From contig JAGNNV010000007.1 of assembly GCA_017990495.1 (NCBI GenBank), positions 1 through 41,715 on the forward strand: a stretch of DNA of 41,715 bases. Reading direction: 5' to 3'. Origin of the DNA: Vicinamibacteria bacterium (GTDB lineage: Bacteria > Acidobacteriota > Vicinamibacteria > Fen-336 > JAGNNV01). The notes beneath the pieces are model-generated. The model did no database searches, had not been told where the DNA came from, and saw only the letters and a program-made list of their open reading frames with translations. Each line of letters opens with the position of its first letter. The stretch's first letter is position 1. Positions 10,383 to 40,409 of the stretch are shown here, piece after piece. Position numbers and translations under genes: made by a program.

Positions 10383-12557
10383 TCAGCGGGCTCCGGACAA
10401 GGCCGCGATCCGGCGTTTGGCCACGTCCTGCACCAGCGGCCCGTCGCGCGAGAGCAGGGTGGCGCCTGCATCCTGGGAGGCTTCGGTGTATTCGTCGAGG
10501 GCCTCCTTCGAGTACCCGAGGTGCTCGAGGGCCACGCCCGCATAGAAGGCGGCCGCGCCTCGCGACAGGCCGGGGGCGGTGGGAAGTTCGTTCTTGGCCT
10601 TGACGAAGGCGTCGTGGGCGCCCGAGTAATCATGCAGGGCCAGGAAGATGAGGCCGAGGTTCAGGCGCGCGAACGCGGCGTTCTCGGAGCCTGGATAACC
10701 TTCGATGGTCTGGCGCAGATCCATGCTCACCTTGTTGGCGAGCATGTCGCCCGCCGAGAGCGAGATCTCCCGCGGCGCGTCCACCAGAGTGAGATCGACG
10801 GTCCGGGGGCCGCCCGCGGCCTCGGTGGTCAGGGAGAGAACCTTGTTGCCGCCCACTGCCTTGACCGCGGCCAGCAGCTCGTCGGTGCGCGTGATGGCGC
10901 CCCCGGCGGCCGCGGTGATGACGTGGCCCGGAGCGAACCCCGCCTTTTCCGCAGGGGACCCCGGAACCACGCGCAGCACCACCGGACCCTGATGAAGAAG
11001 CGTGTCGACGGTGATGAGCCCGGACCAGGGGGTGAACATGGAGGCCCGTCGATCGAAGGCCTCGAAGAAGCGGGCGAAGGAGGCATCATCCTCGATGACC
11101 ACGGACACCGAATCGGGAGTGACGCCGCCCGCGGCAAGAACGTGCAGCGCGGCCGATCGAGTGATCTGCTCCTCGGGAATGCGGCCCACGAGGAAGCCCT
11201 GCACCTGAAGGGCGAGAGCAAGTTTCTCGAACACCCGCCGCACCAGCGCCGGGTCGGGGGTGGCCGGGGGCAGAAGGTCCGAAAGCTTCATGCGCTCGGC
11301 GGCCAGGGCCTTGTCGACGGTGGCCCGGTCGGCCTTCACGAAGTTCATGGCGTGGATGCCGGTTGCGGCCATGCGGGAGAGGCGCGCGTCCATCGAGGCC
11401 AGGCTGCGTTCGCCGGAGGGGCCGTCGGCGATCACGCCCAGATAGGCGAGGGTCGGCCGGATCTGTGCCGCGATCTCCACCGTGGCCCGCGACTTGAGAT
11501 CGATGTCCTGGACGAACCGGCCCGCGGCGTGGCGCACTTCAACCCGGCGCACCCCCGCGCAGACCGATCGCAGGATTTTTGGGGCGACGCCTTGAGACTC
11601 GCCGTCGATGAAGATCTGGCCGCCCGGAGGCTCTGAAGTGAGCGAGAGGGTGCCGACCGATGGCTCAAGCTTGATGGGCGGGATGTCGTAGTCCTGAGGT
11701 TCGGGGACGTCGAGGCCCAGCTTGAGGGTTTCGTAACAGGGCCGGCGGAACTCGATGGTGTGGGAGCCCGAGGGCAGGTCGGGGATCTCGAGTCGATTCG
11801 AGGCCTTGGCCGGATCGAGGCCGCGGGCCGCGGCGATGGCGGCGAGGGCCGGGTCGAGCACGCCGCTCGTGGAGCCCTTGACCACGCCGTCGATCAGGAT
11901 CTCCACGTCGGTGGGCTCGGTGATCACATAGCCCGTGGCCGAGGTCCTCACCAGGTCGAACTGCAGGCTCAGGGTTTCGCCGGCCACGACGTTGACCGAC
12001 TGCGTTTCCTGACGGTAACCGCTCTTGGTGATGTCCAGGGTGTAGTCGCCGGCCACGACCTCGAGGGGAAAGAAGTCGGTGATGGAGAGGAGCACGCCGT
12101 TCAAGGCCACCTTCGCGCCCTGGGGCATCGACTGCACCGTGATGTAGCCGACCATCTGGGCTTTGACGCTCTTGAAGTACTCGATGACCTTGGGGGAAAT
12201 CGAGCCCTCGTCGAGATTGTGGGAGGGACGGATGGCGATCAGGTTGCGGAAACTCTCCCCCGCCTTGTCGGTGTTGCCCAGGTTGAATTGCACTCTGGCC
12301 CGGTATTCGTGGGCGTTGACGAGGAGACTTTCGCCGGGCTCCGCAAGGGGCGCCTGGCGGCGAAGCGTTTCGAGCTGAGCGATGATCTCGTCGAAGCGAA
12401 CCAGCGACTGCCCCTGCTGGGGGCCTTCGAACTCGGAAATGGCCAGATCGAAGGTGGCGCGCAGGCTGGCGAGTTCGGCGTCGGTCTGGGCCCGGGCCGG
12501 CGTCGCGAACAGCGAGGCCAGAAGGGCCAGGGCCAGGATCACAGAGCGGGCTTTCAC
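10383..12557 (-). CDS. Secreted PEGA/PDZ/TPR protein
   Basis: The 724-residue protein starts at a GTG and has a Sec signal peptide (hydrophobic core ILALALLASLFA, cleavage near ARA-QT). Three PEGA-like repeats follow at about 136-202, 207-297 and 301-366, shown by SMPQGAKVALNGV, EPTDVEILIDGV and EPPGGQIFIDGE. A PDZ domain lies near 511-592 (GPVVLRVVPGSPAEKAGFAPGHVI), then TPR-like helices (about 610-700). The GTG at 12557 overlaps the upstream stop by 4 bp (GTGA). PEGA domains also occur in the neighbouring kinase, so both may act in the envelope, perhaps touching the same surface. No enzyme motif is seen; the PDZ has no protease domain attached. Confidence 0.87.
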   Translation of the reverse strand: MKARSVILALALLASLFATPARAQTDAELASLRATFDLAISEFEGPQQGQSLVRFDEIIAQLETLRRQAPLAEPGESLLVNAHEYRARVQFNLGNTDKAGESFRNLIAIRPSHNLDEGSISPKVIEYFKSVKAQMVGYITVQSMPQGAKVALNGVLLSITDFFPLEVVAGDYTLDITKSGYRQETQSVNVVAGETLSLQFDLVRTSATGYVITEPTDVEILIDGVVKGSTSGVLDPALAAIAAARGLDPAKASNRLEIPDLPSGSHTIEFRRPCYETLKLGLDVPEPQDYDIPPIKLEPSVGTLSLTSEPPGGQIFIDGESQGVAPKILRSVCAGVRRVEVRHAAGRFVQDIDLKSRATVEIAAQIRPTLAYLGVIADGPSGERSLASMDARLSRMAATGIHAMNFVKADRATVDKALAAERMKLSDLLPPATPDPALVRRVFEKLALALQVQGFLVGRIPEEQITRSAALHVLAAGGVTPDSVSVVIEDDASFARFFEAFDRRASMFTPWSGLITVDTLLHQGPVVLRVVPGSPAEKAGFAPGHVITAAAGGAITRTDELLAAVKAVGGNKVLSLTTEAAGGPRTVDLTLVDAPREISLSAGDMLANKVSMDLRQTIEGYPGSENAAFARLNLGLIFLALHDYSGAHDAFVKAKNELPTAPGLSRGAAAFYAGVALEHLGYSKEALDEYTEASQDAGATLLSRDGPLVQDVAKRRIAALSGAR

Positions 12558-14044
12558 TTGAACCTCACGATGGTCTCGGCCCGGTCGTCGTACACGAGGG
12601 CGGCGCCCGAGAGGTCGATGGCGACGGCCCGGCTCTTTCGCACATCGGATGCGCCGAAGGTGGACATGAGGGCGCCCTTGGGTGAGAGCAGGAAGATGCC
12701 CTGATCCTCGTCGGCCACGTAGATGTTGGAGAAGGCGTCGATGGTGACGTCCACCGGCTTCTTCCACTCGAAGCCCGGTCCTTGTGGGCCGATCTTCAGC
12801 ACCAGCCGGCCGGCCTCGTCGATGACTTCGATCGACTTGTCGTCCTTGCGCAACATGAGGGCCTCGCCGCGGGGGGTGGTGACGAGCTTGATCACTTCAC
12901 GTTCGGCGCGATCGCCGAAGACCGAGACGAACACATTGTCGCGGAAGCGCAGGACGCGCTTGCGCTTGAGGTCGGAGATGAGGATGTCGCCCGAAACCAG
13001 GACGGTGGCGGCGCCGATGCGGTCGACCGCGTCCATGACCCCAGGCTTGTCGGAAGGCATCGAGAAGGAGACCGCGCCTTTAGTCCCGGTCTTCACGGCC
13101 AGCCGGGAGGCGAAGATCACGTCGCCCTGGGGCGTCACGGCAAGGGTTTGGGGGTCGTCCGCGGTGAGCGAAGCCCCGAGCTTGAACGAGGGGTCGAAGG
13201 AGATGGCGGACTTCGTCTTGTTCGAGGCGATCCAGGTGACTCCGGCAGGCGTCACCGCGATCGACCGGACATCCTTGAGCACATCGCCCGCGGCCAGGGA
13301 GAACGCCGGATCCTTCAGGAAGGTCGGGCGCTCATGCGCATAGAGGCGGTACAGGGCCGTATTCGCGTTCAGGGCGCGGACGGCGGCTTCCGAGGCGGGG
13401 TAGAAGGACCGGACACGCTGGAACTCCTCGAGGGCGGCCTGCACATCCCCGGACATGGCGAGCGACTGGGCCAGTTCGAATTGGGCCTCGGGGGCGAGAG
13501 CACTCGTTGGATAGTCGAGGACGGCGCGGCGCGCCGAGTCGACCGCGGAGTCGTAGCGGCCGGCCCGACGAAAAACCGCGGCCGACGCCACGAGGGCATG
13601 GGGCACGAAAGCGCTGCCCGGATAGAGGCGAATCACTCTCTGGAAATTGGCCAGCGCATCGTCGAGCGCGGCCTGGGTGGCCGCGGTGTTGAAGGCGATG
13701 CGCCCGATCTGCAGGTAGGCGCCGGGGGCCGAGTCGCTCTGCGGGTAACGCTTGGCGATCTGGTCGTAGACCTCGCGCGCCTTGCTCGGGTTCATCTCGA
13801 CCTCTTCGGCATAACGCCCGATGTCGAGCAGAGCGTCGTCCGCCCAGACGGAGGTGGGGAATCCGGTGACGATGGTCTGCAGGGCATCGAGGCCTTGTTT
13901 GGCCCGGCCGTTGGCAAGGTCGGTGCGGCCGTCCTCGAGCAGGCGGCGCGCCTGATCGTCGGGGCGCGACTGGGGCTGGGCCCCGACCAGAACACCGGTG
14001 AAGAGCGCCAGCAGGGCCGCCGATGGGATACGGACTCGGCTCAA
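12554..14044 (-). CDS. Secreted TPR plus beta-propeller (NHL-like) protein
   Basis: The 496-residue protein has a signal peptide (IPSAALLALFTGVLVGAQ). TPR-like repeats of BamD/YbgF type follow at about 30-250, recognised by recurring patterns such as AREVYDQIAKRYPQSDSAPGA and ALEEFQRVRSFYPASEAAV. The C-terminal half has repeated beta-sheet blades (VRSIAVTPAGVTWIAS; VDVTIDAFSNIYVADEDQGI; AVAIDLSGAALVYDD), consistent with an NHL or six-bladed propeller. The best start is the TTG at 14044, which overlaps the kinase stop (TTGA) and has GGAG six bases upstream. Translation is coupled to the kinase on one side and the PEGA/PDZ gene on the other. A role as binding partner or scaffold in the envelope is inference. 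Confidence 0.83.
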   Translation of the reverse strand: MSRVRIPSAALLALFTGVLVGAQPQSRPDDQARRLLEDGRTDLANGRAKQGLDALQTIVTGFPTSVWADDALLDIGRYAEEVEMNPSKAREVYDQIAKRYPQSDSAPGAYLQIGRIAFNTAATQAALDDALANFQRVIRLYPGSAFVPHALVASAAVFRRAGRYDSAVDSARRAVLDYPTSALAPEAQFELAQSLAMSGDVQAALEEFQRVRSFYPASEAAVRALNANTALYRLYAHERPTFLKDPAFSLAAGDVLKDVRSIAVTPAGVTWIASNKTKSAISFDPSFKLGASLTADDPQTLAVTPQGDVIFASRLAVKTGTKGAVSFSMPSDKPGVMDAVDRIGAATVLVSGDILISDLKRKRVLRFRDNVFVSVFGDRAEREVIKLVTTPRGEALMLRKDDKSIEVIDEAGRLVLKIGPQGPGFEWKKPVDVTIDAFSNIYVADEDQGIFLLSPKGALMSTFGASDVRKSRAVAIDLSGAALVYDDRAETIVRFK

Positions 14045-15990
14045 GGTTTTCTCCCCATGACGTAGGCGGGCTTGCCGGGCTGGACGAGAACCCGCTCTTC
14101 GGACCGCGCTCCATCCGGCCATTCGAAGGTGATCACATGGTTTCCTGAGGCGATGGCGCGGTCGAGGATGGGCGGATAGTCGAGGAAAACGCCGTTCACG
14201 AGGACCTTGCAGTTGTCGGGACTGGCCCGCACTCCGAGCTTACCGGTGGCAGGGACGCGCACTGAAGCGGAACCGCCGGCCTCGATGCGGACGGTTTCGC
14301 GGTGTCGCAGGAACACCGAGGGTGATTCCACCAGCACCTCGTGCGCGCCCGCGGGCAGGCTGGCGGTCAGACCGGCCTTCTCCGAACCAATCACGCGACC
14401 GGCAACGGAAACGGTGACGGGGTAGGAACTCTCGATCACGAGGCTTCCCGGGGGACCGGAGGGCGTCGCGGCGGCGTTTGTGGGAGTGGCCTTCCGTTCG
14501 CTGTCGACGCCGGCGGGGCCGGATGGAGGCACAGGGGCCGCGCTGATCGATTTTGACGGGGGCGCCGTCCGCGGTGGCGCAGCAGTGGTGCTGGAAGAGC
14601 CTCGGGAGGCCGGCGCAGGGGCTTTCTCCGCGGCCTTCGCCGGGGCCGGCCCAGACCCGCCGGGCACGAAGATCTCGGTGATCGTGGGCGTGGGCTCGGG
14701 TCCGCTGGGGGCGTCGCCAGTCCGGGTGACATACAGGAACGCGGCCACCGACCCTGTGGCGATGGCCAGGCCCACCGCCCCGAAAACGAGCGCGTTCGAC
14801 CCTGTGTTCACGGGCGCGCTCTGTGGCTGCGCATTCGTGACGGTGTTGGCGCTGCCGCTGATGGTGCGCCCTTCGACGATGGTTTCGTCCCCCTGCCGGC
14901 TTCGATTGAAAGTGGCGTCGAGTTCGGGGAACGACGCGGTCTCGGTGACCTGATGGGGATCGCCCGGCCGACGGTGGAGCAGTCGGCGCAGGCGCTGGGC
15001 CTCCGCCGCGTCTGGATGCGCGCGGGCGATTCTCTCCACAACCTCGACCGTGGCCTTGTCGGTCTTCTGCGCGGCGAAGACCTTACGCGCCTGCGACAGG
15101 GCCGCGAGGTCCTCCGCGGTGAGTTGAGGCGCGGGAAACCGCTCACGAACCCGGGCCAACTCATCGGCCATGACCGCGGCGGATGCGTAGCGGGCCTCGA
15201 CGTCCTTCTCGAGCGCGCGGTCGATGACTCGCTGGACGTCGGCGGTGAGGCGACCGGCGACGTCGGGCCCGAGCCTGGGATGGGGCTCGTTGACGATGCG
15301 GTAGAGCACGCGGGTTGGATCGTCGGAGGTGAAGGGACGTTTGCCCGCGAACAATTCGTGCAGGATGACACCCACCGCGAAGACGTCGGTGCGTCCATCG
15401 AGCACGCCGCCCCGGATGTGCTCGGGGCTCATGTAATAGGGCGTGCCCACCATCATGCCCGCCTGGGTCATCGATGTGCTCTCGACCTTGGCGATGCCGA
15501 AGTCGAGGATCTTCACCCCGCCGTCGTCGAGGACGCGGATATTCGAGGGTTTGATGTCCCGATGCACGATGTGGTGGGTGTGGGCGAAGTCGAGACCGCG
15601 CAGGCTCTGGATCACGATATCCAGGCGTTCGGTGGCGGAAAGCGGCTCGCGCGAGCGCAGGAGGGTTTCAAGATCCTGACCACCCAGAAGCTCCATGGCG
15701 ATGTAGGGGAGGCCTCGATCCTCGCCCAGCTCGAACACGGTGACGATGTTCGGATGCTGGAGGCGGGCCGCGGCCTTGGCCTCGATTTCAAATCGGCCCC
15801 GGCTTTCGGTGTCGCTCGCGCCGTCGACGCGCAAGGTCTTGATGGCGACGTCGCGGTCCAGAGCCTCGTCGCGGCCGAGGTAGACAACCCCCATGCCGCC
15901 TTTGCCCAGCCGGGCCCGGACCCGATATCTGCCTATGCGATATTCGCCGGAGACCGCGGGGTTCCGGGCGGCGCTACCTTGGGAGGTCAC
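14041..15990 (-). CDS. Transmembrane Ser/Thr protein kinase with PEGA region
   Basis: This PknB-type kinase has 649 residues. The cytoplasmic kinase domain (about 22-285) has the glycine loop GKGGMGVV (29-36), the VAIK lysine (51), the alphaC glutamate (near 70), HRDIKPSN (143-150), DFG (163-165) and MSPEH (187-191), so all catalytic residues are present. A Thr-rich juxtamembrane stretch includes DETIVEGRTI, a plausible phosphorylation and FHA-docking site (inference). One membrane helix lies at about 400-422. The outside part has a Pro/Ala/Ser linker and a C-terminal PEGA-like region (SLVIESSYPVTVSVAGRVI and VRASPDNCKVLVNGVFL). A PP2C phosphatase gene lies 42 bp upstream, and a TPR/propeller gene overlaps the stop by 4 bp. 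Confidence 0.95.
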   Translation of the reverse strand: MTSQGSAARNPAVSGEYRIGRYRVRARLGKGGMGVVYLGRDEALDRDVAIKTLRVDGASDTESRGRFEIEAKAAARLQHPNIVTVFELGEDRGLPYIAMELLGGQDLETLLRSREPLSATERLDIVIQSLRGLDFAHTHHIVHRDIKPSNIRVLDDGGVKILDFGIAKVESTSMTQAGMMVGTPYYMSPEHIRGGVLDGRTDVFAVGVILHELFAGKRPFTSDDPTRVLYRIVNEPHPRLGPDVAGRLTADVQRVIDRALEKDVEARYASAAVMADELARVRERFPAPQLTAEDLAALSQARKVFAAQKTDKATVEVVERIARAHPDAAEAQRLRRLLHRRPGDPHQVTETASFPELDATFNRSRQGDETIVEGRTISGSANTVTNAQPQSAPVNTGSNALVFGAVGLAIATGSVAAFLYVTRTGDAPSGPEPTPTITEIFVPGGSGPAPAKAAEKAPAPASRGSSSTTAAPPRTAPPSKSISAAPVPPSGPAGVDSERKATPTNAAATPSGPPGSLVIESSYPVTVSVAGRVIGSEKAGLTASLPAGAHEVLVESPSVFLRHRETVRIEAGGSASVRVPATGKLGVRASPDNCKVLVNGVFLDYPPILDRAIASGNHVITFEWPDGARSEERVLVQPGKPAYVMGRKP

Positions 15991-16032
15991 GGCGGAGAAA
16001 CCTGGTCCCGCATCGAGCCGGACCCGCTACCC

Positions 16033-16794
16033 TCACTCGTCCCGCTTGATGATCAGGACGGTGATGTTGTCTTCGCCGCCGTGGGCGTTGGCCTCAGCGA
16101 TCAGGACCTCCGCGGTCGTCTTCGGGTCGGCGTTTTCGCGGACAAGCCTCTCGAGGTCGGCGTCGAGGACCATTCCCGACAGCCCGTCCGAGCACATGAG
16201 GAGAATGTCGCCCACCGCCATGTCGTGGGAGGTGATGTCGACGTTCAGGTCCGGGGCCGCGCCGATGGCGCGGGTGACGACATTGCGCAGGGGATGGGTC
16301 CGCGCCTGATCGTGGGTCAATACGCCCTGGGCCACCTGTTCGAGCACCCAGGAATGGTCGACCGTCACCTGGCGGATTCCTTCGCCGTTGATCAGGTAGA
16401 GCCGGGAGTCGCCCACGTGGGCGATGTGGGCGGTGGCGTTCTCGAACAGCACGCCCACGATGGTGGTGGCCATGCCCTCGTAGTCGGCCTGGGTCAGGCT
16501 CAGGTCGAGCACCTTCTGATTGCCGAACCGAACCGCGGTTTTGAGTCGGTTGGCGACCATCGAGAGGCTCGGGTCGACGCCCCAGGGCCAGGTGATGTCG
16601 GTTTCCTTCGCGGTGAGGGCCACGAACTCGGCGACGGCCTGCACCGCGGTGCTGGAGGCGATTTCGCCCGCCGCGTGTCCGCCCATGCCGTCGGCGACCA
16701 CGAAGAGCTGGTCCTCTTCGAAGATTCCGAAGTAGTCCTCGTTGTTCTTGCGGCGTCTTCCGACGTCGGTGGCCCCGAAGAAGTTCAGCTTCAA
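16033..16794 (-). CDS. PP2C-family Ser/Thr phosphatase
   Basis: This 253-residue cytoplasmic, metal-dependent phosphatase is of the Stp/PrpC type. Its motifs are TDVGRRRKNNEDYF (metal-binding Asp/Glu), VVADGMGGHAAGE (the D-G-M-G-G-H core), HVGDSRLY, MCSDGLSG and GGEDNITVLII, which together supply the metal-binding acidic residues. It should reverse the phosphorylation made by the kinase encoded just downstream. The start is a TTG at 16794; the bases AGAAAACC lie directly before it, the same octamer as before two other genes of the cluster. The upstream J-domain gene ends 103 bp away. Confidence 0.95.
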   Translation of the reverse strand: MKLNFFGATDVGRRRKNNEDYFGIFEEDQLFVVADGMGGHAAGEIASSTAVQAVAEFVALTAKETDITWPWGVDPSLSMVANRLKTAVRFGNQKVLDLSLTQADYEGMATTIVGVLFENATAHIAHVGDSRLYLINGEGIRQVTVDHSWVLEQVAQGVLTHDQARTHPLRNVVTRAIGAAPDLNVDITSHDMAVGDILLMCSDGLSGMVLDADLERLVRENADPKTTAEVLIAEANAHGGEDNITVLIIKRDE

Positions 16795-24640: not shown

Positions 24641-25459
24641 ATGTCCAGAATTCATTTGACGTCTCTCATGTCTAAGTCCCTGGCCTTTCTTCTCACTATG
24701 GCCATGTCCTCATTGAGCGCCTACGCCCAGGAGCAGGGCGCGCCTCCGCCCGCTCCAGGGAAGCCCGGCGCCTCCGATCCCCTTGAGCTTCTTCCCGCCA
24801 TCGGCCGGATCGGCGCGGAGGTAGGCCTCCACGGGGGCTGGTCGCGAAATCCGTATTCGCTCGGTTCAGGGGCCCAGGGCATGGGCTTCATCAACCTGCC
24901 CCTCAAGAAACTGGGCTCGGGTGTGCTTTCGTACCAGATCGCACTGCGTTTCGCGCGCAGCACCAGCGAACCCATCACCGTCACCAACCCCGTGGCCTTC
25001 GTGGCCAACCTGGCCGCCACCGGCCGCGGCGACGTGGGCCCATTTCCGTATCGGCGCCTCGTCCGCTCGACCGGCTCGATCTTCGTGGTCGAGCCTTTCG
25101 GCTTCAAGTACGCGCTTCATTCATTCGGTCGCTTCCGGCCGTATGTGGTGGCCGGCGTCGGCGTGGGCGTGGTGATCACCAAGGAGATTCCCGAGGCCGA
25201 CGAGAGTCAGGTCTTTACCGGCACCTCTCCCTTTGATGCCGATCTGATCGCCGGCCTCATCGCCCAGGCGAAGGAACTCGAGGCGCTGGGGCGTCCCACC
25301 GGACAGGGCAACCTCGAGGTGGCGGGTCACGCGGGTGTGGGCTTCGAACTGCGGTTGAGCCCCGGCTTCTCGCTGCAGGCCGACTATCGCTTCACCCGAC
25401 TCTCCGGCCGAAACTCGTCGATGCACATGGCGAGCGGCGGCTTCGGGATTCACTTCTGA
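24641..25459 (+). CDS. Outer-membrane beta-barrel-like protein
   Basis: The 272-residue protein has a Sec signal peptide (SLAFLLTMAMSSLSAYAQ). The mature part is rich in alternating strand patterns (GVLSYQIALRFARST, RPYVVAGVGVGVVIT, AGHAGVGFELRLSPGFSLQADYRFTRL) and ends in FGIHF, a terminal aromatic typical of barrel proteins inserted by BamA. It resembles the OmpA-barrel/OprF-like porin-fold group only by pattern. Either ATG 24641 or ATG 24668 could start it; the second gives a more compact signal peptide. The next gene begins in the stop (TGATG), so they are coupled. Confidence 0.8.
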   Translation: MSRIHLTSLMSKSLAFLLTMAMSSLSAYAQEQGAPPPAPGKPGASDPLELLPAIGRIGAEVGLHGGWSRNPYSLGSGAQGMGFINLPLKKLGSGVLSYQIALRFARSTSEPITVTNPVAFVANLAATGRGDVGPFPYRRLVRSTGSIFVVEPFGFKYALHSFGRFRPYVVAGVGVGVVITKEIPEADESQVFTGTSPFDADLIAGLIAQAKELEALGRPTGQGNLEVAGHAGVGFELRLSPGFSLQADYRFTRLSGRNSSMHMASGGFGIHF

Positions 25460-25965
25460 TGCCCTCGGTGGGCGAGACCTCTCCCGTCAGCCGTCGTCGC
25501 CTGATCGAGGGCGGCGCGCTGCTCACCGCAGCTGCGATTCTCGGCGCGTCGACGGGGAAAGCCGTGGCCAAGGACTATGTCTCACGGCGGGAGGCCCTCG
25601 ATGATCTCGATCGGCTGGCCGCGCTGTGCGGAATGCGGCTTGGCAGGGTGCGTTCCGCGCGCGCCTCGGCCGAACGGCTCACCACGCGTTTCCTGTCCGA
25701 TCTCAGGCGATACCAGGCCAATCGTGACGATGTTCGGCGTCGTTTCGGCCTGCCCGCGGGTCTCGATCCGGCCACGCAGATGGCGGAGGTCGAAGGCGAT
25801 CTCAGGGAATTGCGCCAGGCCCTCGACGATCTCATGATCGCCTACGCCGAGAGCCTTCCCGTTTTTGGCGACGCCCAGGTGGTGTCGCGCCTTGCCATCG
25901 ACATGGTCGATGTCTCGCGTCTGCGCACGGTGATCGATCTTTGGGTCGAGGCGGAGGCCGCATGA
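25459..25965 (+). CDS. Tat-type exported helical protein of unknown function
   Basis: The 168-residue product has a twin-arginine-like signal: SRRRLIEGG followed by ALLTAAAILGASTGKAVA. The mature part is almost wholly helical with many charged residues (AEVEGDLRELRQALDDLMIAYAE). No metal or haem motif is apparent. The ATG overlaps the previous stop, and the following ferritin-like gene overlaps this gene's stop by 4 bp (ATGA). The arrangement suggests the two Tat-type proteins form a pair in the periplasm; that is inference. Confidence 0.75.
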   Translation: MPSVGETSPVSRRRLIEGGALLTAAAILGASTGKAVAKDYVSRREALDDLDRLAALCGMRLGRVRSARASAERLTTRFLSDLRRYQANRDDVRRRFGLPAGLDPATQMAEVEGDLRELRQALDDLMIAYAESLPVFGDAQVVSRLAIDMVDVSRLRTVIDLWVEAEAA

Positions 25966-26495
25966 AGATCGTCACGCCGCTCCACGCCCGTCGCGAGTTC
26001 ATTCGAAACGCGGCCGGAAACGCCGGCCTCACCGCCGCGGTCTCGGGCTTTCTCGCCGGCCGGGCCGATGCGCTCCCGAAGAGCGAAGAGACCGACATCG
26101 CCATCCTGCAAGCCGCGCTTGGTCTCGAACATGAAGCCATCGGCATCTATGCCGACGCTCTCTCGCGGAATCTCGTGCCCGCGGGGCTGCGCGACTACGC
26201 GGTCGAGTTCAAGGGCGCGCACGAAGGTCATCGCGATACCCAGGTGGAGATCCTGCGCGAGCGCGGGGTCGACGCGGTGGCGCCCCACAAAGTCGATGCG
26301 CTCCGCGAGTCCACCGCGGGCGACGCGGTGGTGCGTCGGCTGCTGTCGGTCGAAGCCGCGGCGGAGTCCGCTTACTTGCGCCTCATCGGCCAGATCCGCA
26401 CCAACGACTACCTGCTCTCCGCGGGTTTCATCGTGGTCGACGAAGCAAGGCACCAGACCATCTGGCGCCGCGCGCTGGGCCTCTCGATCTACTGA
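25962..26495 (+). CDS. Ferritin-like four-helix protein with Tat-like leader
   Basis: The 177-residue protein has an N-terminal ARREFIRNAAGNAGLTAAVSGFLAG leader with twin arginines. Four helices carry ferritin-type ligands: LGLEHEAIGIYADAL, FKGAHEGHRDTQVEIL, SVEAAAESAYLRLI and IVVDEARHQTIW (E-x-x-H). A di-iron or similar metal site is thus plausible, in the style of exported ferritin-like (DUF4439-type) proteins. I chose the ATG at 25962, which overlaps the upstream stop; the longer frame adds only a glycine-rich stub from inside the previous gene. A putative cupredoxin and a sensor kinase are encoded downstream. Confidence 0.85.
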   Translation: MKIVTPLHARREFIRNAAGNAGLTAAVSGFLAGRADALPKSEETDIAILQAALGLEHEAIGIYADALSRNLVPAGLRDYAVEFKGAHEGHRDTQVEILRERGVDAVAPHKVDALRESTAGDAVVRRLLSVEAAAESAYLRLIGQIRTNDYLLSAGFIVVDEARHQTIWRRALGLSIY

Positions 26496-26560
26496 TCGCG
26501 GCCGAACGGCCGGGCCTTTCACCGGAAACCAGGGATGCGGCGAGAATAGAGGGGCTCCCC

Positions 26561-27088
26561 ATGCCGATCTACGAGTTCTACTGTTCTTCCTGCCACACCG
26601 TCTTCAATTTTCTGTCCAAGCGGATCAACACCGAAGGCGCGCCCGCGTGTCCGAAGTGCGGGAAGGGCACGTCGCGCAAGCCGTCGACTTTTGCCATGTC
26701 GCGCAATCGGCCCGAGCCCAAGGCCGGCGAGGGCGCACCCGGACCGGGCGGCGACATGATGGACCCCTTCGCCAACATGGACGAATCGCAACTCGAGTCG
26801 GCCATGGAGTCGCTCGCTTCCGAGGCGGACGGGATCGACGAGAACGATCCGCGCCAGGCCGCGAACGTGATGCGCAAACTCTTCGACGCCACCGGCATGC
26901 CCCTTGGGGGCGGCATGCAAGAAGCGCTGAAGCGCATGGAGTCGGGCGAGGATCCCGAGAAGATCGAAGAGGACATGGGCGACCTGCTCGAGGCTGATCC
27001 CTTCGCCGGCGAGCCCGGGAAGAAGTCGACCGAGCGTCGCATCCCCGGGCGTCTCCTCGCCCACGATCCGAACCTCTACGAGATGTGA
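26561..27088 (+). CDS. FmdB-like zinc ribbon protein with acidic extension
   Basis: The first ~40 residues are an FmdB/CxxC_CXXC_SSSS-type zinc ribbon (MPIYEFYCSSCHTVFNF, with Cys 8, 11, 30 and 33). Members are usually 60-110 residues; this one has 175. The long acidic tail is rich in Met, Glu and Asp (ESQLESAMESLASEADGIDE; LKRMESGEDPEKIEEDMGD), with helical periodicity. Function of the family is poorly defined, with a regulatory role suggested for FmdB. The cupredoxin gene's GTG overlaps the stop by 4 bp. The gap to the ferritin-like gene is 65 bp. Confidence 0.88.
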   Translation: MPIYEFYCSSCHTVFNFLSKRINTEGAPACPKCGKGTSRKPSTFAMSRNRPEPKAGEGAPGPGGDMMDPFANMDESQLESAMESLASEADGIDENDPRQAANVMRKLFDATGMPLGGGMQEALKRMESGEDPEKIEEDMGDLLEADPFAGEPGKKSTERRIPGRLLAHDPNLYEM

Positions 27089-27777
27089 TCAGCTCGAAGT
27101 CCGCCGGCATTCTCGTCGGGGCATTCCTTGTGGGCCTCGGCGCGTCGGCCCTCGCCGCCCAGGAGGGGGCGACACTCTCAGGCCGCGTGAGCCTCCTGCT
27201 TCCCCCCAAGGTTGAGGTCGATCCCGGCGGATCCGTGGTCTGGATACCCGGGCTGACCATCGCCGGCTCCGGCTCGGTCCGTCCTTCCGTCACCTCGAAG
27301 GACAAGCGGTTCGATCCCCGGATTCTCGCGGTTCCCGCGGGCACGCGGGTCACCTTTCCGAATGTGGACGCGATCTACCACAACGCCTTCAGCCTGAGTC
27401 CCGGGAACACCTTTGACATGGGTCTGTATCGCAAGGGAGCGTCGCGCGATGTGGTCCTGAAGAATCCCGGCATCGTGCGCGTCTACTGCAACATCCACCC
27501 CGACATGGCCTCCTCCGTGGTGGTGGTGGAGGGGAACGCCTTCGCTCTCGTGCAGAAGGACGGGACGTACCGCATCGCAGGCATCCCGCCGGGCCGCCAT
27601 GAAGTCCATATCTGGAGCGACATCGCGGGCGAGCAGGTGATCACGCTCAGCTTCGCAGCCGGCCAGGCCGTTGACTGGAGCCCGGCTCTTGACGCCACCA
27701 AGTATCGGCGGATGGCCCATACCAACAAACACGGCAAGGCCTACCCGAAGGCGAAGAACGATGCCGACCGGTACTGA
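27085..27777 (+). CDS. Exported cupredoxin-domain protein
   Basis: The 230-residue protein starts at GTG 27085 with a signal peptide (AGILVGAFLVGLGASALAA). A plastocyanin-type domain (about 74-150) shows type 1 copper ligands: His 99 in IYHNAF, Cys 135 and His 138 in VYCNIHPDM, and Met 141. A small carboxypeptidase-regulatory-like beta domain follows (about 150-200; RIAGIPPGRHEVHIWSD). It is therefore a probable periplasmic electron carrier or copper protein, similar to those annotated as methylamine utilisation proteins. It overlaps both FmdB-like and sensor-kinase genes. Confidence 0.9.
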   Translation: MISSKSAGILVGAFLVGLGASALAAQEGATLSGRVSLLLPPKVEVDPGGSVVWIPGLTIAGSGSVRPSVTSKDKRFDPRILAVPAGTRVTFPNVDAIYHNAFSLSPGNTFDMGLYRKGASRDVVLKNPGIVRVYCNIHPDMASSVVVVEGNAFALVQKDGTYRIAGIPPGRHEVHIWSDIAGEQVITLSFAAGQAVDWSPALDATKYRRMAHTNKHGKAYPKAKNDADRY

Positions 27778-29896
27778 CTCCGAGCCCGAAACCCGTCCCC
27801 TTCGCATCGACACCCCTCTGCCTCCGGGCCTGCTCAAGGCCCCCGCGATTCGCGCCGTCGCCGACGATCGTCCTCGTGGCTTCGGGCTCCGCACCCGGCT
27901 CTTCTTCGGCTCGGTCCTGCTGCTGGCCTTCACCATCGGCGCGGCTATCGCCTTCCTCACCCTGAAGTCGCAAAGCGTCGCCGATCAGAAGATCCGCGAG
28001 GACCTGAATGCGGTGCCCGCCATTTTCGAAGGCTACCGTTCCTCTCAGGCCGGGGCGCGCGAACGCGCGGTGCGCTCGCTCGCCGAGGAAGCCGGCACGA
28101 AAGCGCTCATGGCCGAAGTGCGCGAACACCCGGAGACGTTCCACGATGCGGCCCGGGGTTTCGCCAAGACCCTCGGCGCGCGTGCGGTCTACCTGTTCGA
28201 TCCCTCGGGTTCTCTGCTCGCCCGCAGCGACCGCGAGCCCGGTGAGGAAACCGGCCGCGACTTTACCGGCATCAGCTGGGTGGACGTCCCGCGCGAGACC
28301 CGCACGGAGAGTTCGGCCTTCATCCTCGAGGTATCGAGAGATCAAGCGCTCTCGCTCGTGGCCTCGGCTCCGGTGACCCAGGGGGAGGGCGCGGAGACGC
28401 GGCTCAACGGCGTGCTCGCCGCGTCCTGGGAAATCTCCGACGAACGCGCGAAGGAGATGGCCCTGCTTACCGCGGGGGACGTGGCCGTGGTGGGGAACGT
28501 GGCGGCGCGTGGCGCGCCGATAGAGCTTCGGGTGCTCTCTTCCACCCGGAAGTTCGCGCAGCCCATGCCCGAAGCGATGACTCGTGCGGTCACCCATGTG
28601 TTCTCGCAGGAGGCCCAATCGGAACCGGTTGAGTTCGTAAAGGCGGGCGAGGCCTTCATTGCCACCGCCCTGCCCATCCGCTCGGGCCGTCGGGAAACCA
28701 TCGCCGCTCTGGTGGTGGGGCGGTCGAAGGACGCGGAGATGGCGCCTTTCCACGAGATCCGGCGCAGCCTGTTGGTGGTGGGGGTGCTCGCCCTCCTCCT
28801 CTCCGTGCCGCTCTCCTTCGCCATGGCCCAGGGCCTGGCTGGCCCCATTCAGAAACTGGCCGAGGGCGCGCGACAGATCGCGGGCGGGAATCTTGACGTC
28901 TCACTGCCCACCGCCGACGGCGAGGTGGGTGTGCTGGCCCGCGCCTTCGAGGGCATGGTGGGCGAACTCAAGGAAAAGGCCCAGCTCGAGGCCCTCGTGG
29001 CGAATCTCCAGCGTCGGCCGGGCGACGTCACCTTTCGCGGAGCCGCCCCGGGCGCGCCCGATTCGGGTGAGAGTGGCCGGGTCGGACAGATCTTCGCCGG
29101 CCGCTACGAACTGCTCTCGGAACTCGGCAACGGGGGCATGGGCGTGGTGTTCCGCGCCCGCGACCGGGAACTCGACGAGGAAGTGGCGCTCAAGGTGCTG
29201 AAGGGCGTGGGCGAAGGGGACGAGCCGCAAGCCCTTGTCGACCGTCTGCGCCAGGAAATCAAGCTGGCCCGGGTGATCACCCATCCGAACGTGGTTCGCG
29301 CTTTCGATTTCGGGGAAAGCGGCGGGTCCCGTTTTCTGACCATGGAATACGTGCCCGGCACCACGCTGCGCGAAGTCATCGACGCCCGCGGCGGCCTTCA
29401 GCTCACTCCCGCCCTGCAGATCGCGAAGCAGGTGTGCCGAGGGCTCGCCGCCGTGCACAAGGCGGGGATCATCCATGGTGATCTCAAACCCCAGAACGTC
29501 ATGGTCATGGGCAGCGGTGTGGCCAAGCTCATGGACTTCGGGGTGGCCCGGACGCGTTCACACCAGGAGCATGGTGGCGTCGTCCTGGCCGGCACTCCTC
29601 TCTATATGAGTCCGGAGCAGGCCAAAGGCGCCGATCTCGACGAGCGCAGCGACATCTACTCCGCCGGAGTGCTGATGTATGAGATGTTCACCGGTCGGTG
29701 CCCTTTCAAGGCGCGCGAGGTGACGGAGATCCTGCAGATGCACCTGAACGACGAGCCCGCCGATCCGAGGACGCTCCGGCCCGAGATCCCCGCGGCTCTT
29801 TCCGAGATCATTCTGGCCTGCCTCGCGAAACACCGCGCCCAGCGTCCGTCGAGCGCCACCGACCTCGACCGGTGGCTCATGCGGGTGCGCGTATGA
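27761..29896 (+). CDS. HAMP-linked sensor Ser/Thr protein kinase
   Basis: The 711-residue protein fuses a histidine-kinase-style sensor to a eukaryote-like kinase. Membrane helices lie at about 47-68 and 335-356, with an extracytoplasmic sensor domain of about 265 residues between them (AVYLFDPSGSLLARSDREPG resembles a Cache/CHASE strand set). HAMP follows (about 356-410). The kinase domain (449-705) has GNGGMGVV (456-463), VALK lysine (478), HGDLKPQN (572-579) and DFG (592-594). The usual HRD is HGD, so it is a non-RD-like kinase and may not need activation-loop phosphorylation. I chose the ATG at 27761, overlapping the cupredoxin gene by 17 bp. Confidence 0.92.
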   Translation: MPTGTDSEPETRPLRIDTPLPPGLLKAPAIRAVADDRPRGFGLRTRLFFGSVLLLAFTIGAAIAFLTLKSQSVADQKIREDLNAVPAIFEGYRSSQAGARERAVRSLAEEAGTKALMAEVREHPETFHDAARGFAKTLGARAVYLFDPSGSLLARSDREPGEETGRDFTGISWVDVPRETRTESSAFILEVSRDQALSLVASAPVTQGEGAETRLNGVLAASWEISDERAKEMALLTAGDVAVVGNVAARGAPIELRVLSSTRKFAQPMPEAMTRAVTHVFSQEAQSEPVEFVKAGEAFIATALPIRSGRRETIAALVVGRSKDAEMAPFHEIRRSLLVVGVLALLLSVPLSFAMAQGLAGPIQKLAEGARQIAGGNLDVSLPTADGEVGVLARAFEGMVGELKEKAQLEALVANLQRRPGDVTFRGAAPGAPDSGESGRVGQIFAGRYELLSELGNGGMGVVFRARDRELDEEVALKVLKGVGEGDEPQALVDRLRQEIKLARVITHPNVVRAFDFGESGGSRFLTMEYVPGTTLREVIDARGGLQLTPALQIAKQVCRGLAAVHKAGIIHGDLKPQNVMVMGSGVAKLMDFGVARTRSHQEHGGVVLAGTPLYMSPEQAKGADLDERSDIYSAGVLMYEMFTGRCPFKAREVTEILQMHLNDEPADPRTLRPEIPAALSEIILACLAKHRAQRPSSATDLDRWLMRVRV

Positions 29897-31236
29897 GAAG
29901 TTTGGGCGTGCTCGTCAACATGATGCGTCTGGCTCCTGCGGCCCTGGCCCTCCTTCTAAGCGCGCCCGCGGCGGCGCAGGACGAATCCGTCGAGCCTCCC
30001 CCGGTCACCGAAGAGCCCGAAGGGTTCCGGTTCGGGGGAGAGATCAAGGCCGGATTCCGCTGGTCGCAGGCTCAGTCATCCTCGATTTTCGGCGCGGGCA
30101 ATCGGGTGGTCGGCTTCATGCGCACGCCCCATGCGGGAAGCTCCATCGAAATCCAGCACCTCGCGGTTTCCGGCGAGGGGTTCGTGACCTCGGGGGTCTT
30201 CGCGAAGTTTGAGGTGCGTTTTCTCGATACGTATAACCGCAACCCCACATCGAAGGACGACACGGTCTTCGTGCGCCAGGCCTTCGTGCGTTTCGGCGAG
30301 AAAGGGGAGACTCTGAGCGGGGACAAGGGCTCCAAGGTCTATGCCCTGTTCGGGATGGCACCGCGGTTCAGCAAGCAGACCACGCGCCGACTGGAGACCT
30401 ACGGTTTGTGGGGTACGGCGGTCGGCCGGTTCGAACAACCCCAGCTCGAGGTTGGGGCCTCGTTGGGGAAGAACGTCTACGCCCGCGCGATGATTGGTTC
30501 GGGGAATCCCTTGTTTCTGCGCGATACCAACGTGCTGGCCGGCGACAACCTCTCCGAGGCTCCCGCCGACGCCCGCGCCACCTACGAACTCGGTTTTCCC
30601 ATCCTCTACGACGCCAAGGTCACCGAGATCAACGTGGGAGCCAATCCCGAAAAGGGATTCGGCCTGGGCGCCCGCTTCGGAGGGGGCGACCGGCCGGCCG
30701 TCGATGTGCTGGGCTGGTACTTCGGCCGCAGGCTCGCCGAGACCGCCCGCGTCCGGGGCAGCAACTATCCCGGCGAACTGGCCGTGCTGAAAGGCGGCGA
30801 TTCTCCGATTCCCACCTCAGGCAACCGCCGTCACGAATGGGGGATCAATGTCCAGGCGCGCGTCAGCGGACTGCGTCTTTTCGCGCAGTGGATCGATCAG
30901 GACCTGGCGGGGGCGGGCCGCTACGGCCTCGAGGCCGAGGCGGCGTGGATCTTCCCGCTGCCCGGTCTGTTTCTCGTGGGCGAGTCGCCGTTTGGCAACT
31001 GGATCCAGCCCTCGTTCCGTTACTCGTGGATCGAGAACCGGTTCACCGCCCCGCGCACCTATCCAAGGCTCGCTGTACTGTGGCCCTGGAAGAAGTACGA
31101 CTTCGGTCTCCGCATGGGCCTCGTCCGCAATGTCGACCTCACCGCGGAGTACACCTTTCACCAGGTGTTCCGCACCGTCGATCTCCCGAATCTCCCGATG
31201 AAGGAGTTCGTGCTGACCCTGCGGACCGGGTTCTAG
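29893..31236 (+). CDS. Porin-like outer-membrane protein
   Basis: The 447-residue protein has a signal peptide (RLAPAALALLLSAPAAA-QD). The mature part has long amphipathic strand patterns (RFGGEIKAGFRW; GVFAKFEVRFLDTYNRNP; GINVQARVSGLRLFAQWI; VRNVDLTAEYTFHQVF) and a C-terminal TLRTGF ending in Phe, as in barrel proteins. It may be a porin or an outer-membrane channel; its substrate is unknown. Start ATG 29893 overlaps the kinase stop (ATGA), so the porin and sensor kinase are translationally coupled. A longer open frame starts within the kinase gene and is not used. Confidence 0.85.
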   Translation: MRSLGVLVNMMRLAPAALALLLSAPAAAQDESVEPPPVTEEPEGFRFGGEIKAGFRWSQAQSSSIFGAGNRVVGFMRTPHAGSSIEIQHLAVSGEGFVTSGVFAKFEVRFLDTYNRNPTSKDDTVFVRQAFVRFGEKGETLSGDKGSKVYALFGMAPRFSKQTTRRLETYGLWGTAVGRFEQPQLEVGASLGKNVYARAMIGSGNPLFLRDTNVLAGDNLSEAPADARATYELGFPILYDAKVTEINVGANPEKGFGLGARFGGGDRPAVDVLGWYFGRRLAETARVRGSNYPGELAVLKGGDSPIPTSGNRRHEWGINVQARVSGLRLFAQWIDQDLAGAGRYGLEAEAAWIFPLPGLFLVGESPFGNWIQPSFRYSWIENRFTAPRTYPRLAVLWPWKKYDFGLRMGLVRNVDLTAEYTFHQVFRTVDLPNLPMKEFVLTLRTGF

Positions 31237-37979: not shown

Positions 37980-39329
37980 GTGAGCAAGCTTGGGCCGGGA
38001 CACCGGTTTGGGATCTGTGCGCCGGGCCTTGTCTTGGCCCTGGCGATGCCTTTGGCGGCCCATACCCTCTCCGCCTCTCCCTTGCGCGCCGACACTCGGA
38101 ACCATGCCCAGGATCCGCCCGGGGTCGAAGCCACGCCTTCTCCCACCCCAGAGGCTGTGCCCCACGGCTGGAGGCGCGACGGCCTCGGATTCAAAAACGG
38201 CGAGTCCAGGGTTGACCTCAAGGGATACGCACAGGCCGACTTCCGCCACTTCGGTTGGGAGCCCAGCGAGGCCGGCCCTGGATCTCTTCGCTCCGCGCGC
38301 GAGATCCGGCGTTTCCGCATCGGAATCGAGGCGGAACTAAACAGGTTATCCCTCGAGTTCGTCATGGATCCGCGCAACTCCGAGGCCGGCGATCGCCTGA
38401 AGGACGCCACCATCGGCTACGCCTTCTCGAAGAAGGTCACGGTTCTGGTGGGACACTTCAAGCCCGGGGTGAGTCCTGAGTTCCTGAATTCCTCATCGAA
38501 GACGGATCTCATCGATCGTTCGATGGCCGCCGATCGTCTGGCTCCAGACCGCGAGTGGGGTCTGGCCTTGTCCGGCGAACTTGGGTCGCTGTTCTATGAG
38601 GTGGGCGCCTTCGCCGGCGACGGCGCTTCGTCCTCGCAATCCACCGAGTCAGCGGGCACGGCCCGCTTCACCATCGAACCGCGCAAGGGTCTGATCCTGG
38701 GCGCATCGTTCATGCAGGGCGAAGTGAAGACCGACCCGCCCCTGGGCTCGCTTGAGCCCTCGCCGAAGGGCGCCGTTGGGCGCACCCCCAGCGGGTTCAC
38801 CTTCTGGGAGCGGCCCCACGTCCGGGGAACCAGGCAAAGGCTCGGCGGTGACGCCGCCTACTCGCGTGGTCCTTTCCGGATCATCGGCGAGTACCTCCAG
38901 ATGAGCGAGGAGCGTCGCGGACAGGGTTCGGCCGGGCAGGACATTCCAGGTGTCCTGGGGCGGGGGTGGAGCGTCCAGGCGACGTGGATCCTGACCGGGG
39001 AGACGAAAGCCAAGACCATCCGGCCGAGGGCGTCGATCTTTGAGGGCGGCAAGGGCACGCTCGAAATCGCGGCCCGCATCGAAGGACTGAAGTTCGACGA
39101 CACCGCCGATCCCACGGGATTGGCGGGGTACGGGAACCGAGCCCGCGACATCGCTCCGTCCGGTGGCAGCGTCAGGGCCTTGGGCCTCAATTACTGGGCG
39201 TCCCGGTTCCTGAAGTTTCAGGCGAATGCTCTGTGGGAGAGCTACAACGACCCGCTTATCTCGCCCATTCCCGGCAACCGGGGTCACTATTTCACCTTGT
39301 CGGGTCGGATTCAGCTCATGGTTCCGTGA
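37980..39329 (+). CDS. OprP/OprO-like porin
   Basis: The 449-residue protein starts at GTG 37980 (GGAG upstream) and has a signal peptide (GLVLALAMPLAAHTLSA). The mature part starts with GWRRDGLGFKNGESRVDLKGYAQADFR and continues with IRRFRIGIEAELNRLSLEFVMDPRNS and VLVGHFKPGVSPEFLNSSSKTDLIDRSMAADRLAPDREWGL, all typical of the phosphate-selective porin O/P family. The product ends in QLMVP rather than Phe, an atypical terminus for a barrel. Specificity for phosphate is not shown here. It converges on the Tag gene, with 3 bp between the ends. Confidence 0.88.
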   Translation: MSKLGPGHRFGICAPGLVLALAMPLAAHTLSASPLRADTRNHAQDPPGVEATPSPTPEAVPHGWRRDGLGFKNGESRVDLKGYAQADFRHFGWEPSEAGPGSLRSAREIRRFRIGIEAELNRLSLEFVMDPRNSEAGDRLKDATIGYAFSKKVTVLVGHFKPGVSPEFLNSSSKTDLIDRSMAADRLAPDREWGLALSGELGSLFYEVGAFAGDGASSSQSTESAGTARFTIEPRKGLILGASFMQGEVKTDPPLGSLEPSPKGAVGRTPSGFTFWERPHVRGTRQRLGGDAAYSRGPFRIIGEYLQMSEERRGQGSAGQDIPGVLGRGWSVQATWILTGETKAKTIRPRASIFEGGKGTLEIAARIEGLKFDDTADPTGLAGYGNRARDIAPSGGSVRALGLNYWASRFLKFQANALWESYNDPLISPIPGNRGHYFTLSGRIQLMVP

Positions 39330-39989: not shown

Positions 39990-40409
39990 CTATTTGATCC
40001 GGTAGGTGTTGTCGGGCAGCTTCTCGCGGTGCACATCGTGGCAGGCCTTGCACGTCCCCTGGAGGGTCTTCACCGCTTCGCGGGCGGCCACGGCGTCGTT
40101 GGCCTCCGCGGCCTTGGCCACGGCCATGGCTGCGGCGCGCGACTTCGCGTTCATCTCCACCGCGTCCTGGGCCTTGCGAGCCACCCAGAATGCGTCGATG
40201 CTCGCGAGGGCGGCGTCGATAGCCTTGGCCCCCGCCACCGCTCCGCTCAGGTCGGCCGAGTTTTCGCGCATAGTTTTGCCGATGGTCTGCATGCCGGCAA
40301 GGGTAGCTTCCATGGCCTTCTTGTAGTCGGCCTCGGTGACATCCTGGGCGTGGACGTTCGGAGTGATGAGGGCCGCGGCCAGAACCGCGATGAGAGAGAG
40401 TTTCCGCAT
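39990..40409 (-). CDS. Cytochrome c'-like protein
   Basis: The 139-residue protein has a signal peptide (LSLIAVLAAALITPNVHAQ) and a mature part of ~118 helical residues. The only haem motif, CKACH, is near the C-terminus (LQGTCKACHDVHREKLPD), the layout of class II cytochromes c (c' and c556). TLAGMQTIGKTMRENSADLSG corresponds to the first helix. Function may be electron transfer or gas binding. ATG 40409 has AGGAG 12 bases upstream. No other cytochrome or maturation gene is visible nearby. Confidence 0.88.
   Translation of the reverse strand: MRKLSLIAVLAAALITPNVHAQDVTEADYKKAMEATLAGMQTIGKTMRENSADLSGAVAGAKAIDAALASIDAFWVARKAQDAVEMNAKSRAAAMAVAKAAEANDAVAAREAVKTLQGTCKACHDVHREKLPDNTYRIK

Follow-up and report, generated by a model that had tools for sequence, protein, structure and literature searches.

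The window (the whole 41,715-nucleotide stretch analysed, from a Vicinamibacteria bacterium) encodes, in order, a cupredoxin, a transmembrane receptor kinase and an outer-membrane porin (27085-31236). We predict that these genes constitute an envelope signalling module with a cupredoxin reporter, a dCache-HAMP receptor and a co-encoded porin, a reading to which we give about an even chance. They lie at the end of a run of seven genes that a preliminary description had treated as a single metal or redox unit. The run is a composite of three pieces: an upstream trio (omp-tat1-ferr), an FmdB gene, and the cupredoxin-sensor kinase-porin core. The source assembly comprises 4.2 Mb in 472 contigs, and among named relatives the locus is closest to a Vicinamibacteria MAG, to which the best cupredoxin segment is 83% identical.

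All seven genes are on the plus strand and form one tight run (24641-31236). The trio encodes a small outer-membrane beta-barrel-like protein (omp; 24641-25459; 272 aa, or 263 aa from the ATG at 24668) that scores below the OMP_b-brl cut-off, a Tat-signal protein with no recognised fold (tat1; 25459-25965; 168 aa) and a Tat-signal ferritin-like protein (ferr; 25962-26495; 177 aa). The last of these belongs to Ferritin_2 (5.7e-17; 62.6 bits against a cut-off of 24.7), and the likely metal site attributed to it earlier is supported by candidate ligands (E56, H87/H90, E131 and E161xxH164-type residues) that are kept in seven aligned relatives. A FmdB-type zinc ribbon protein follows (26561-27088; 175 aa; above the cut-offs of both Zn_ribbon_8 and TIGR02605). 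The core comprises the cupredoxin (cup; 27085-27777; 230 aa), a receptor Ser/Thr kinase (STK; 27761-29896; 711 aa) and the porin (29893-31236; about 447 aa). The junctions read from the sequence are those originally described: TGATG at 25457-25461 (a 1-bp overlap), ATGA at 25962-25965, GTGA at 27085-27088, ATGA at 29893-29896, and a 17-bp overlap between the kinase start (27761) and the cupredoxin stop (27775-27777). The sole open junction, of 65 bp, is that from the ferritin-like gene to fmdB. Overlaps occur at 5/6 junctions in the run, compared with 2 of roughly 19 same-strand neighbours elsewhere in the window (Fisher p = 0.002, counted by hand from the gene list). A promoter and terminator scan returned nothing beyond chance level.

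The shared strand and the overlaps at five of six junctions are what would be expected if all seven genes acted together, with the ferritin-like protein and the cupredoxin as paired metal sensors. In the same-genus genome G001, moreover, both blocks are on one contig in the order seen in the window. However, six other genes (about 5 kb) separate ferr from fmdB-cup-STK-porin in G001, and across the 60 relatives searched the trio and the cup-sensor-porin genes occur independently at the level of the order. The genes omp, tat1 and ferr are on one contig in G001, G004, G006, G009 and G011 (contig ends interrupt the trio in G014 and G002), and the stretches read from the last four of these genomes contain no cupredoxin. 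G001, G003 and G007 preserve the cup-kinase-porin order; in G040 and G042 a porin of that family accompanies the cupredoxin and sensor genes and is divergently oriented. The preliminary description had named a non-conserved order as grounds for abandoning the seven-gene claim; by that criterion it does not hold, and the three-gene core is what remains. We therefore reject the seven-gene unit on gene distribution and regard joint action of all seven genes as very improbable. Long-form FmdB adjoins the cupredoxin only in the genus of the window (including G001), where fmdB overlaps the cupredoxin start; in G008 and G013 FmdB and the best cupredoxin match are on different contigs. The trio and fmdB are neighbours joined locally, with FmdB an accessory or a neighbour. 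What stands of the proposed metal or redox unit is the link of a copper or redox protein in the periplasm with a transmembrane sensor and a channel in the outer membrane, a core that is conserved and specific. The evidence does not support including the two Tat proteins (the ferritin-like one among them), the first barrel or the zinc ribbon. One of the six intervening genes in G001 is multihaem cytochrome-like (L093:14059-15519).

The cupredoxin has a signal peptide, a type-1 copper domain (about residues 66-148) and a CarboxypepD_reg-like tail. The His-Cys-His-Met copper ligands noticed earlier (H99, C135, H138 and M141) are present, located in FPNxD, HNxFS and CxIHxxM motifs, and are invariant in 48/48 aligned rows (including the duplicates L032/L093 and L033/L051). 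Their order, H...C-x2-H-x2-M, is the amicyanin-type pattern shared with other blue-copper proteins and predicts a type-1 (blue) copper site. Matches to the Cupredoxin_1, Copper-bind and amicyanin profiles are weak and below cut-off, and matches to blue-copper domains in the PDB reach 2e-5 and 3e-4. Membership in the amicyanin family itself was rejected (TIGR02657; 19.6 bits against a cut-off of 110.2). The protein differs from amicyanin in an extra N-terminal stretch and in the CarboxypepD_reg-like tail and, unlike the case of amicyanin, no methylamine dehydrogenase genes were identified among the window genes scanned. In one branch of the family, the cupredoxin gene neighbours genes for Rieske and cytochrome b proteins (L127:831-2071, also near L129, L131 and L151), and members of this branch are possible electron carriers for a bc-type complex.

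The receptor is organised as TM-dCache-TM-HAMP-Hanks kinase. Its catalytic half is a Hanks-type Ser/Thr kinase (Pkinase, 3.6e-53; GNGGMGVV at 456, HGDLKPQN at 572 and DFG at 592), preceded by HAMP (3.2e-9). The N-terminal half was modelled as a double Cache between TM helices (pLDDT 83; Foldseek matches to DctB, Tlp3 and PctA), and this modelled fold, with HAMP after the second helix, predicts a dCache receptor. The window kinase itself gives only a weak sCache_3_2 match; relatives pass the dCache_3 cut-off. The sensor kinase does lie between cupredoxin and porin as first described, but it is of the Hanks Ser/Thr type, joined to dCache and HAMP, rather than a histidine kinase. Assignment as a two-component histidine kinase was rejected because neither HisKA nor HATPase_c is present in the window protein (both are found in some relatives). 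Receptor Ser/Thr kinases of the PknB/Stk1 type (NF033483, for which the window protein is below cut-off) also combine a Hanks domain with a transmembrane sensor part, but that part is C-terminal PASTA rather than N-terminal dCache-HAMP. A further difference is the catalytic loop, which is HGD (non-RD) in 6/6 members of the window kinase clade and HRD in other branches; this loop sequence may indicate regulation independent of the activation loop.

The association of this cupredoxin subfamily with a dCache-HAMP sensor extends well beyond the genus. A dCache-TM-HAMP protein is encoded within three genes of the cupredoxin in 36/45 loci of the first set, and in 52/68 once loci from across the phylum were added; several of the misses are contig ends. 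The loci are from Acidobacteriota, Myxococcota, 'Deltaproteobacteria', Planctomycetota, KSB1 and Pseudomonadales records, with further ones on named Burkholderiales and Sphingomonadales plasmids. In a control, other cupredoxins (those with weaker profile scores) had a sensor in 1/18 cases, against 15/22 for the subfamily; the groups were drawn by profile score after the loci had been read, so the p value of 5e-5 is only indicative. Cupredoxin and sensor tree distances are correlated (Mantel r = 0.77, 53 pairs, 0/5000 permutations), with r inflated by shared descent. Where two copies are present (G003 and G007), the cupredoxin and sensor of each pair match in type, so that the pairs are cognate. 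No believable cupredoxin-sensor gene fusion was found. The sole candidate, an in-frame fusion at L161:5727-7337 in a MAG, lacks TM1 and the first Cache and was rejected, a deletion or a fault of assembly being the probable cause.

At least eight kinds of output domain are attached to the same sensory half (by Pfam): a Ser/Thr kinase in the window, L053 and L047, a cyclase plus kinase in L052, a cyclase in L034, a hybrid histidine kinase in L038 and L043, a histidine kinase in L103 and L035, HD-GYP in L109, a SpoIIE phosphatase in L036 and GGDEF-EAL in L173 and L177. The last arrangement corresponds to pairs annotated as 'methylamine utilization protein' plus EAL on Caballeronia, Comamonas and Novosphingobium plasmids. 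Their cupredoxins are homologous to that of the window, keep the four ligands and, as in the window, are directly upstream of a dCache-HAMP protein. They differ in the GGDEF-EAL rather than Ser/Thr kinase output and in a DUF3034 companion, and are known from annotation only, the papers covered by the search giving no function for them. In the Caballeronia and Novosphingobium plasmids (L173:3452-7755, L175 and L177) DUF3034, a truncated haemoglobin, the cupredoxin and the dCache-HAMP-GGDEF-EAL protein are encoded together. In Myxococcota loci, a multihaem cytochrome lies between cupredoxin and sensor.

Recurrence of a cupredoxin-sensor-channel unit in many groups, with the signalling end exchanged, suggests that the sensor receives its report from the copper protein: the cupredoxin subfamily accompanies the sensory half whatever the output, and is most simply explained as its partner. 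We propose that the secreted type-1 cupredoxin acts as periplasmic reporter for the transmembrane dCache-HAMP receptor. In its loaded or empty, or oxidised or reduced, form it would bind the dCache domain or deliver its signal to it, so that the domain would read the copper or redox state of the cupredoxin; HAMP would pass the signal on, and the kinase would then phosphorylate target proteins. The co-encoded porin could supply or tune passage of the relevant solute through the outer membrane. Such logic resembles that of LuxP-LuxQ, in which the periplasmic protein LuxP reports to the Cache-type receptor LuxQ; in both, a periplasmic protein partner would act on the periplasmic domain of a receptor, and the LuxQ domain (3c38) is among the structural matches of the window dCache. 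The systems differ in that LuxP is a sugar-binding-type protein, whereas the window partner is a cupredoxin with a predicted contact, and in that receptors of the window type vary in output. Counting against the cupredoxin as ligand, dCache domains usually bind small molecules.

The small-molecule preference, seen in solved dCache relatives, also favours a competing explanation, that the cupredoxin merely carries electrons in the periplasm, as ordinary carriers do, and that the dCache-HAMP protein alone senses a small molecule and controls carrier and barrel, with no signalling between proteins. The adjacency of one family branch to Rieske and cytochrome b genes and the multihaem cytochromes between cupredoxin and sensor in Myxococcota fit such a role. 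However, the same subfamily occurs with HD-GYP, GGDEF-EAL and Ser/Thr kinase outputs, which have no obvious role in regulating a local operon, and the core in the window is without an electron-transfer partner gene. On balance we consider a simple carrier unlikely. Less probable still is a function in copper homeostasis, in which the cupredoxin would buffer or store periplasmic copper, the sensor monitor copper and the porin control its entry. Here the type-1 site, which appears intact from its residues, the porin adjoining the sensor, and one Phyllobacterium relative near an SCO-family gene and oxidase genes are set against the general use of type-1 copper sites for electron transfer rather than as copper stores; also, neither the window neighbourhood nor the annotated plasmid loci contained a recognisable gene for a copper ATPase, CopC/D or a multicopper oxidase. 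For the reporter-receptor module, redox seems a likelier signal than copper stress, given the Rieske/cytochrome b branch and the loci with a Myxococcota multihaem cytochrome or a truncated haemoglobin.

The porin is the weakest part of the proposed module. It has no Pfam family but ends in a C-terminal Phe, and its best Foldseek matches are the general porins BpsOmp38, OprP, OmpF and DcaP (E about 1e-10 to 1e-12, from a model with pLDDT of only 58.7). Homologues adjoin the cupredoxin and sensor genes in G003, G007, G040 and G042, and outer-membrane barrel genes occur near the pair in most lineages. These barrel-like genes fall into several groups with no similarity between them detectable at the threshold used, and in one large group (L055-L067) no barrel is next to the pair. 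The lack of relationship among the barrels and their absence from that group make the role of the porin the least certain, and it is by position that it may belong to the same pathway as the cupredoxin and sensor. Being co-encoded, it is at most a candidate target for the change in outer-membrane permeability that the preliminary description ascribed to the unit.

Each component is of a known kind, and the pairing with exchanged outputs appears to be new: we found no account of a cupredoxin paired with dCache receptors of differing output in the open-access literature, to which the search was confined, and a study of cupredoxins (PMC12016527) deals with ones other than the window subfamily. 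More tentatively, and with somewhat less than even confidence, we suggest a widespread class of envelope sensing in which dCache-HAMP receptors take a blue-copper protein as their periplasmic ligand and have interchangeable outputs and a dedicated outer-membrane barrel. If so, a single protein's redox or copper state would be read as phosphorylation, c-di-GMP, cyclic nucleotides or phosphatase activity. Inputs are known for few dCache receptors, and a conserved partner with an intact copper site is a concrete candidate input for a receptor group that spans several phyla and at least eight outputs. The pairing would also assign a role to the 'methylamine utilization protein' genes that lie unexplained next to those for EAL proteins.

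Elsewhere, the window encodes a Porin_O_P family porin (38157-39329) and a cytochrome c'-like protein (39990-40409). A second Ser/Thr kinase gene forms one run with a PP2C phosphatase gene on the minus strand (14041-16794), followed by genes for TPR and PEGA/PDZ proteins (10383-14044); together they make up a kinase-phosphatase set that is soluble and separate.
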